From positions 1,116,001 to 1,180,000 of the forward strand of contig NZ_JACSMD010000001.1 in NCBI RefSeq assembly GCF_018618475.1: a stretch of DNA of 64,000 nucleotides, read 5' to 3'. The DNA is from Exiguobacterium sp. s122 (GTDB taxonomy: Bacteria; Bacillota; Bacilli; Exiguobacteriales; Exiguobacteriaceae). Position 1 is the stretch's first letter; each line of letters begins with the position of its first letter. Shown piece after piece: positions 10,927 to 16,113 of the stretch. The notes beneath the pieces are model-generated. The model had not been told where the DNA came from. It did not search any database and saw nothing but the letters and a program-made list of their open reading frames with translations. A program made the translations under genes and the position numbers.

Positions 10927-11367
10927 TTAGAACGCACGTTTGAAAAACGTGGATGTATAATCGAGCGTCGTATGGAGCGTCGTCGCAAACGTTAGGCCGA
11001 GGAAGAACGATAGACCGAACTCGTCGAGCCAAGCGATTGCCGCCGCCTCATATGACGTAAACGTAAGGAGGATGACGATTGGAAAACCGAGATAGATGAC
11101 GCGAATCATGTCGCTCAGTACCGGTAAATGCGAAAACAACGACCGGTGCGGCATGAGTTTTACGTAAGGCAACCAAAAGCCACGAAGCGGCCCCCAGCGG
11201 AAATAGGCGTCTGATTTCAAGTCGAGGTCCGGGGAGAGCCAGAGCGTCCCGATGATGGCGCCTAAGAGTAGCGCGAACGGGACATCGAGTTCAATAAAAG
11301 GCGTGGCAATCGCTAAAGCACCGATTGCCACGAAATTCGTACGCGTATGCGTCTTACCACTCGCCAT
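10927..11367 (-). CDS. DUF2227 family putative metal-binding membrane protein
   Basis: A 146-residue membrane protein with three to four hydrophobic segments. The start [11 protein letters not shown], the SPDLDLKSDAYFRWG stretch, and PHRSLFSH match the DUF2227 pattern known from cyanobacteria and Firmicutes. The His and Asp residues (His7, Asp47, Asp49, His74, His79) are likely metal ligands, similar in spirit to the YdjM-type membrane-bound hydrolases. Its ATG overlaps the lexA stop by one base (TAATG on the minus strand), so it should be translated with lexA and respond to DNA damage. The activity is unknown. Confidence 0.8.
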   Translation of the reverse strand: MASGKTHTRTNFVAIGALAIATPFIELDVPFALLLGAIIGTLWLSPDLDLKSDAYFRWGPLRGFWLPYVKLMPHRSLFSHLPVLSDMIRVIYLGFPIVILLTFTSYEAAAIAWLDEFGLSFFLGLTFATTLHTTLDYTSTFFKRAF

Positions 11368-11987
11368 TAATGAATCGTCCGGTATACACCGATGACCTTC
11401 CCTAAAATCGACACGTTATCAAAATACATCGCCTCAAGCTCATCGTTCTCAGGTTGGAGTCTGATTTTCGAAGCTTCTTTGTAGATCCGTTTGACGGTCG
11501 CTTCGCCTTCGTCGGTCATCGCGACGACAATCTCTCCATTGTCGGCCGTGCTCTGTTGACGTACGAGTACCCGGTCTCCATCTAAGATTCCGGCGTTCAC
11601 CATCGAATCTCCCGATACCGAGAGCATGTAGACGTTATCGGCGCCGACCATGTGTGTCGGGAGCGGGAAATGCTCTTCCACGTTCTCGATTGCAGTGATC
11701 GGTGTACCAGCCGTGACTTTCCCGATGACCGGGACGTACGTGACGGCCTCATGGTCTTCGATGACGACCGCATCCTCACTTAAAATTTCGATCGCACGTG
11801 GTTTCGTCTTGTCGCGACGAATTAACCCGCGCTTTTCAAGACGGTCCAAATGACCGTGCACCGTCGAGCTCGATGCCAAACCGACGGCTTCGCCGATTTC
11901 ACGAACAGAAGGCGGATAACCTTTGGCACGTACCTCGCCTTTTATGAAATCAAGTATCTGTTGTTGTCTTGCTGACATTTTTTTCAT
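11367..11987 (-). CDS. lexA: LexA repressor
   Basis: SOS repressor of 206 residues, of normal length. The N-terminal winged helix (about 1-65, [15 protein letters not shown]) binds SOS boxes. The C-terminal S24 peptidase domain has the Ala93-Gly94 cleavage bond (KVTAGTP), Ser128 in SGDSM and Lys166 in ATVKR, so RecA-stimulated self-cleavage is intact. A GTG at 11996 is in frame but lies inside the ribosome site; the ATG at 11987 has GAGGTGA eight bases upstream. It is divergent from the yneA-like gene, as in B. subtilis, with three SOS-box matches between them, so it controls itself and its neighbours. Confidence 0.97.
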
Positions 11988-12071
11988 GGAAGTCACCTCG
12001 ATTATGTCGAATATCCTGCGAACGCATCCTATTCTTTATGATCTAAGTTTAACATAGAACACATGAGCGCA

Positions 12072-12085
12072 CAAACATTCGTTCG
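12072..12085. promoter_or_regulatory. SOS box 1 (lexA side)
   Basis: On the minus strand this reads CGAAC-GAAT-GTTTG, one base off the Gram-positive SOS consensus CGAAC-N4-GTTCG. It touches a candidate lexA -35 box (TTGTGC), so it probably mediates lexA autorepression. Confidence 0.7.
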
Positions 12086-12096
12086 TTATTTTTATC

Positions 12097-12126
12097 TTGA
12101 CCGAACAGAAGTTCTTGTTTTATGAT
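12097..12126 (+). promoter_or_regulatory. Promoter of the yneA-like operon
   Basis: TTGACC at 12097-12102 and TATGAT at 12121-12126 are separated by 18 bases. SOS box 2 occupies most of the spacer. Confidence 0.65.
12102..12115. promoter_or_regulatory. SOS box 2
   Basis: CGAAC-AGAA-GTTCT, one base off consensus, placed between the -35 and -10 of the yneA-like promoter. Confidence 0.8.
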
Positions 12127-12139
12127 GAGAACAGATAAA

Positions 12140-12153
12140 CGAACAAACGTTCT
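12140..12153. promoter_or_regulatory. SOS box 3
   Basis: CGAAC-AAAC-GTTCT, one base off consensus, downstream of the -10 and upstream of the yneA-like ribosome site. Its centre is 38 bases from that of SOS box 2. Confidence 0.75.
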
Positions 12154-12191
12154 TGGGAACGTGTATTCCTATGATGCGGAGGCGAAATTTA

Positions 12192-12425
12192 ATGAAAGAT
12201 ACAGTTAACGGAATCATTTTAGTCGGATTGTTGGTAGTAGGGATGTTCGCATTTTTTATGGTCGGAGAAATGAGACAAGTGGACGTGGCGGCGCCGGTCG
12301 TCGAAGATACGCGTAGCATCGAGGCGGAAGTTGCCAAGACGGAAGCGGAGACGCTCGAAGCGCGCATCATCGCTGAGCGAGCTGAAAAGCAAGAGCGCAA
12401 GACGACTTGGTTCGCTTCAGAATAA
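12192..12425 (+). CDS. Small SOS-controlled membrane protein at the yneA position
   Basis: A 77-residue protein with one transmembrane helix (about residues 7-25, GIILVGLLVVGMFAFFMVG) and a charged Glu/Ala/Arg-rich tail that should form a helix or coiled coil. It occupies the place of B. subtilis yneA, an SOS-induced division suppressor, divergent from lexA and first in the yneB-ynzC operon. YneA proteins carry a LysM domain after the membrane helix; none is visible here. It is therefore a positional and probably functional analogue rather than a clear orthologue. The ATG at 12192 has GGAGG at 12178-12182; a TTG at 12153 overlaps SOS box 3 and is unlikely. Confidence 0.75.
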   Translation: MKDTVNGIILVGLLVVGMFAFFMVGEMRQVDVAAPVVEDTRSIEAEVAKTEAETLEARIIAERAEKQERKTTWFASE

Positions 12426-12467
12426 TCGTTTCTCATTGCGAAACGCCCCCGTTCCTGTGTATCGTAG

Positions 12468-13142
<675 letters not shown>

Positions 13143-13202: not shown

Positions 13203-13436
13203 ATGCTAGCACCTGAACAGTTGGAGCGAATCAATTTCCTCGCCAACAAAGCAAAGACAGACGGATTGTCACAACAAGAGATGGATGAGCAACAAGCGCT
13301 TCGTCAGCAATATTTACAAGCGTTTCGTCAATCGTTTAAGTCCCAAATGATGGGCATGAAAGTAGTCGATCCGGAAGGGAACGACGTGACACCGCAAAAA
13401 CTAAAAGAAGAGCAAGATCGACAACGCTCTGAGTGA
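13203..13436 (+). CDS. ynzC: DUF896 family protein YnzC
   Basis: A 77-residue soluble helical protein. The opening MLAPEQLERINFLANKAK and the segment LSQQEMDEQQALRQQYLQ are characteristic of DUF896 (B. subtilis YnzC), a small family of two or three helices with unknown biochemical role. It is third in the SOS operon after yneB, 60 bases downstream, and is followed by a strong terminator. Its retention in the SOS operon implies a link to the damage response, but no activity is established. Confidence 0.92.
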   Translation: MLAPEQLERINFLANKAKTDGLSQQEMDEQQALRQQYLQAFRQSFKSQMMGMKVVDPEGNDVTPQKLKEEQDRQRSE

Positions 13437-16031: not shown

Positions 16032-16113
16032 TACCCATATTTTGTTAGACAATCGAACAAACTTTCGCTACCATAAATGAATAGTCTTATTTCAAGATAA
16101 GGGGGCGATTCAC

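Follow-up and report, generated by a model that had tools for sequence, protein, structure and literature searches.

A LysM-less membrane protein in the place of YneA beside lexA in Exiguobacterium, a probable SOS-induced division inhibitor

In Exiguobacterium the position divergent from lexA, which is that of the division inhibitor YneA in Bacillus subtilis, is held by a gene for a 77-aa protein with one membrane helix and no LysM domain, whose promoter carries three conserved SOS-box matches. It is quite probable that the product is an SOS-induced division inhibitor. The full reading, in which it inhibits septum formation in the way of YneA and SosA, is given a probability of about 0.7, and both statements are built on sequence comparison. 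The closest known thing is SosA of Staphylococcus aureus, to which the protein shows no relation in sequence. The window referred to below is the whole stretch of 64,000 nucleotides that was analysed, from Exiguobacterium sp. s122.

The gene and its promoter

The arrangement of the locus is as follows, with lexA reading away from the gene and yneB and the ynzC-type gene following it in its own direction.

11367..11996, minus strand: lexA, divergent (TIGR00498, E 8.5e-75)
12072..12085, no strand: SOS box 1, on the lexA side, 0 mismatches, in 38/38 genomes
12097..12102, plus strand: -35 element TTGACC, conserved promoter layout
12102..12115, no strand: SOS box 2, within the spacer between -35 and -10, 1 mismatch, in 38/38 genomes
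12121..12126, plus strand: -10 element TATGAT, conserved promoter layout
12140..12153, no strand: SOS box 3, downstream of -10, 1 mismatch, in 38/38 genomes
12178..12182, plus strand: Shine-Dalgarno sequence GGAGG, ahead of the start in 19/19 genomes of the genus
12192..12425, plus strand: gene of the 77-aa single-helix protein (SosA/YneA-position gene), open reading frame with ATG start
12498..13142, plus strand: yneB, resolvase-like (NCBIfam YneB NF049883, E 2.5e-96)
13203..13436, plus strand: ynzC-type DUF896 protein gene (PF05979, E 3.8e-30)

The family matches of the neighbours and the reading frame itself bear out the initial annotation in placing a one-helix protein of 77 aa opposite lexA and ahead of yneB and ynzC, and these neighbours together with the LexA boxes identify the place as that of YneA. 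The start is the common M[KR]DT behind GGAGG, and a 90-aa version of the frame from an upstream TTG was rejected. An antisense frame of 139 aa over the gene (12092-12511, minus strand) was attributed to chance, being open for at least 120 codons in only 4 of the 19 genomes. Directly 3' of the gene and before yneB lies a small inverted repeat (12427-12445) with a terminator-like score on the minus strand only. On the other side of the locus a DUF2227 membrane protein gene (10927-11367, minus strand) shares the strand of lexA and separates it from glnA.

The three SOS-box matches reported initially are kept in all 19 genomes of the genus, at about 119, 90 and 52 bases ahead of the start, and in all 19 of the sister genus, at 114-125, 84-96 and 50-63 bases. 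Only 15 positions in the 64-kb window show at most one mismatch to the SOS box, each counted once, and three of them fall within the 195-base gap next to lexA; three boxes occurred in none of 20,000 first-order Markov sequences of equal length and composition. The case for a LexA target rests on this clustering and on conservation, because searches at larger scale were not enriched: with two mismatches 205 places were found in the whole window against 212 expected, and a genome-wide search for the exact palindrome was uninformative, with 4 places where the control gave 3. Similarly, the promoter call rests on conservation because the scan by itself is at chance level (1 found, 0.8 expected). 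The layout of -35, 18-base spacer and -10 is present in 18/19 genomes of the genus and in 19/19 of the sister genus, where the -10 has four variants. The promoter of the 77-aa gene thus looks like a LexA target, from which we infer induction by DNA damage, and the earlier proposal of SOS control is supported by sequence and conservation. Elsewhere in the window, 16054-16067 also matches the SOS box with one mismatch, ahead of a pair of ABC transporter genes (from 16180).

A conserved protein of one genus

The protein was present in all 19 genomes of the window's genus, in none of 18 of the sister genus and in none of 24 from other families of the class (61 genomes searched). A search of 299 genomes of the class with a profile of the 18 distinct proteins returned full-length matches exclusively within the genus, in 14 genomes; two weak partial matches to the tail region outside it (G108, E 0.001; G284, E 0.006) were judged compositional. 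The 14 loci found in a collection of named genomes with two peptide patterns, which could miss distant relatives, all belong to Exiguobacterium, and the protein of E. alkaliphilum 12/1 is identical to that of the window. No family matched above its curated cut-off in Pfam or NCBIfam, and matches to YidC, Meg, ATP-synt_G and other families were at chance level, far below the cut-offs. Solved structures gave no match to the protein profile at E up to 1.

Given its shortness and the lack of a family match above cut-off, the frame could be regarded as a dead remnant or a chance product under lexA's promoter. This is very improbable, considering that the frame is uninterrupted in 19/19 genomes, that 27 of the 79 alignment columns are invariant among the 18 distinct proteins and that the Shine-Dalgarno sequence is conserved. 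The mean pN/pS is 0.32 (153 pairs), with 0.20 in the N-terminus and membrane helix (columns 1-28), 0.65 in the linker and 0.28 in the tail, ratios that are rough because the mean pS of 0.62 is near saturation. By these values the gene is under purifying selection.

From a short N-terminus the protein runs through its single membrane helix and a loose linker into a tail rich in glutamate, the last residues of which are WFASE. Its parts are encoded as follows.

12213..12266, plus strand: codons of the membrane helix, residues about 8-25 (hydropathy, flank charges; N-terminus predicted inside)
12318..12419, plus strand: codons 43-76, acidic C-terminal helix where YneA has LysM (low-confidence model)
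12408..12422, plus strand: conserved C-terminal end W[FY]A[AS]E, possibly a protease tag (last residues conserved in 19/19)

The structure model contains helices at 2-28 and 43-76 and no strands, and is weak (mean pLDDT 66.5, pTM 0.29). The N flank of the membrane helix is more positive than the C flank in 19/19 proteins of the genus, which favours an orientation with the N-terminus inside and the C-terminus outside; the rule is a weak one, holding in only 2 of the 4 YneA proteins of family f15. The last residues are TWFAAE, KWYAAE, TWFASE, KWFAAE or EWYAAE in every one of the 19 proteins.

Different products in the two sister genera

The absence of LysM that the initial annotation had noted was borne out by two profiles. 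None of the 18 distinct proteins matches Pfam LysM at E up to 1, and a LysM profile built from 70 YneA-type frames of other Bacilli gave E 2.4 or worse for all 19 proteins of the genus. Nor does the protein match the YneA family NCBIfam NF010723 at E up to 1. In the sister genus, YneB is present in 19/19 genomes and a YneA of about 95 aa lies between lexA and yneB in 19/19. NF010723 matches this YneA in all 19 genomes, over the curated cut-off in 15; four of the proteins were scanned, with E 3e-15 to 6e-17, three of them over the cut-off. Its LysM was found with the YneA-derived profile in 19/19 (E 6.2e-7 or better), and must be called divergent because Pfam LysM matched none of the four scanned proteins and solved structures gave no match to the sister-genus YneA profile at E up to 1.

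The initial annotation had held a clear LysM domain in orthologues at this locus to speak against its reading. Such a domain is found, in divergent form, in YneA of the sister genus and in 0/19 proteins of the window's genus, and the change is therefore placed between the two genera. The proposal that the protein replaced or shrank from YneA is supported, the sister genus still having YneA in the same slot. As judged from the sequences, one damage promoter has two products without detectable similarity in two sister genera.

A survey of lexA loci across the class places the change in a wider frame. Among 180 genomes, 171 had a lexA match, 14 in the family and 157 outside it, and 127 loci outside the family were read. 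The survey left out 22 outside-family genomes that were not among the matches listed, G063, G109, G132, G152, G162, G172 and G201 as near-duplicate genera, and G100; for G070 a second lexA, and for G136 the additional copies, were set aside. A LysM-type frame stood upstream of lexA in 79 of the 127 loci, in 24 of 35 families. The 48 loci without it comprise 12 with clear LysM-less small membrane proteins, 2 doubtful ones and 34 with none by the hydrophobicity filter, which had flagged 14 LysM-less small frames, the doubtful pair (one each in f41 and f12) lying outside the 12. LysM being the commonest state at lexA, the simplest reading of the LysM-less locus in the window's genus is a derived change.

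The clear LysM-less proteins belong to two families, f10 (10/10, SosA-type) and f42 (2/2). Family f10 is taken to be Staphylococcaceae because of the motif EQTYEMTDH, present in 8 of its 10 proteins, and of the residue numbers, since E37, Q38, Y40, E41, D44 and H45 of locus L178 are numbered as in S. aureus SosA according to the excerpted text of PMC6851548. The two f42 genomes (L182, L192; oriented position about 261-265) form a third such group, with an 82-aa LysM-less membrane protein divergent from lexA and lacking EQTYEMTDH. The doubtful frame of f41 (L164) is a possible, very short hydrophobic one beside lexA, of 51 aa from its first start and perhaps of about 31 aa.

Whether the 77-aa protein descends from YneA and has diverged past recognition, its LysM decayed and its C-terminus turned into an acidic helix behind the old promoter, concerns origin only and leaves the function unchanged. 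The slot, the promoter, the reading direction and the single membrane helix are common to both proteins, and the LysM of the sister genus already escapes Pfam. However, comparison of the two profiles gave a probability of 1%, with no likeness beyond the hydrophobic stretch, a six-frame search of the 19 loci up to E 1 turned up no LysM remnant, and no intermediate exists among the 19 + 19 proteins of the two genera. The membrane helix, when measured against 80 background segments from the window, resembled that of sister-genus YneA at a background fraction of 0.09 (0.025 for the best of 20 YneA families), which is not convincing. Descent from YneA is hence a serious possibility, held at somewhat less than even odds.

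Comparison with SosA and other inhibitors

SosA of S. aureus is a LysM-less protein of 77 aa, divergent from lexA and proven by experiment to inhibit division (PMC6851548, in excerpt). According to the same excerpt it blocks septum completion, membrane-proximal D44 and H45 being essential, and its turnover is governed by the last ten residues, apparently via CtpA. The 77-aa protein resembles SosA, as described in those excerpts, in length, place, SOS control (here putative), a single N-terminal membrane helix, the absence of LysM, a conserved extreme C-terminus and the presence of CtpA in the genome, and may resemble it in an outer C-terminal tail, which the flank charges weakly favour. It differs in having no EQTYEMTDH, the motif that contains SosA's essential residues, and in the location of its conserved block, which is the distal acidic helix and not the region next to the membrane. 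Profile comparison gave a probability of 0.3%, with no detectable homology, and the likeness of the membrane helices (background fraction 0.125) was no more than chance. With YneA of B. subtilis and its relatives (NF010723; PMC13396833, in excerpt) the protein has in common the slot within lexA/yneA/yneB/ynzC, the kind of SOS promoter and one membrane helix, here predicted to have the N-terminus inside, whereas it has neither LysM nor NF010723 match, nor profile similarity even to YneA of the sister genus.

SidA and DidA of Caulobacter, DivS of Corynebacterium and ChiZ of Mycobacterium, so far as excerpted descriptions go, are likewise single-helix membrane proteins, damage-induced and able to stop division; they come from other phyla, have other tails, with LysM in ChiZ, and are likened here by description and not by sequence. 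Since a LysM-less division inhibitor of 77 aa was shown by experiment in SosA, which the initial annotation had overlooked, the kind is already known, and its description of the gene as a candidate for an undescribed function was too strong on the excerpted evidence of PMC6851548. What does seem to be new is the protein family, together with the switch within a single bacterial family. A literature search with subscription papers and preprints outside its scope found no paper joining Exiguobacterium, YneA and LexA, and papers on Exiguobacterium, the SOS response and cell division included none on this protein, judging by title and start of abstract.

Proposed mode of action

RecA-triggered cleavage of LexA would switch the gene on, and the protein would insert in the membrane with its N-terminus inside. 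The conserved membrane helix would dock on the septal synthase, for which FtsW is the likeliest candidate, and the acidic outer helix (43-76) would sterically hinder septal wall synthesis, as proposed for the extended helix of SosA, standing in for LysM without a grip on peptidoglycan. Once the damage is repaired, the W[FY]A[AS]E end would act as the signal for removal by CtpA. The parts for a SosA mode seem to be present, namely a conserved helix whose flank charges favour the N-terminus inside, a predicted outer helix, a conserved end and CtpA.

YneA binds to TM7 of FtsW through its membrane helix, and in B. subtilis it is inactive without LysM (PMC13396833, in excerpt), so that another inhibitory part must be assumed here. 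AlphaFold 3 models, not of high confidence, place SosA at TM7 of FtsW too, and the authors suggest that its extended helix may interfere with the FtsW cavity (same excerpt). The SosA motif is missing from the 77-aa protein, whose conserved block sits distally, so that any inhibitory surface would have to be peculiar to it. FtsW was located in 38/38 genomes, all matches below the model's cut-off, and by analogy it may be the target, at a little under an even chance. Clearance by CtpA, likewise argued by analogy, is an evenly balanced proposal: CtpA is found in 38/38 genomes together with a SepM/YlbL-type protease, and its presence is only permissive. The latter protease we take to be DdcP.

An unlikely alternative is that the gene encodes another SOS-induced membrane protein, for instance a depolarising peptide like TisB or a partner of YneB, with division checked some other way. 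It would explain why no sequence link to a proven inhibitor is seen, and it agrees with the loss of YneA activity without LysM in B. subtilis (PMC13396833, in excerpt). Nevertheless, the long conserved acidic tail is ill-suited to a pore peptide, the LysM-less proteins at lexA include the proven inhibitor SosA, and no short YneA was found elsewhere in the genus among the matches listed (in the window's genome five of six are listed, all in frames of at least 270 aa). A division inhibitor is the preferred reading.

Implications

A broader and tentative proposal, less probable than its negation, is that the SOS promoter constitutes a fixed socket, in which YneA was exchanged in one family for an unrelated protein that would halt septal synthesis through an acidic outer helix, without a grip on peptidoglycan. 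If this is true, LysM-less inhibitors would, SosA included, have had more than one origin at lexA, needing only a docking helix and a tail. In B. subtilis YneA depends on its LysM, and SosA does without one. The occurrence of LysM and LysM-less forms behind a common promoter in sister genera makes swaps of helix and tail possible between close relatives, and these could reveal the part played by the tail and test FtsW as a shared target. The comparison of the two genera suggests that a regulatory slot can outlast the protein that it drives.
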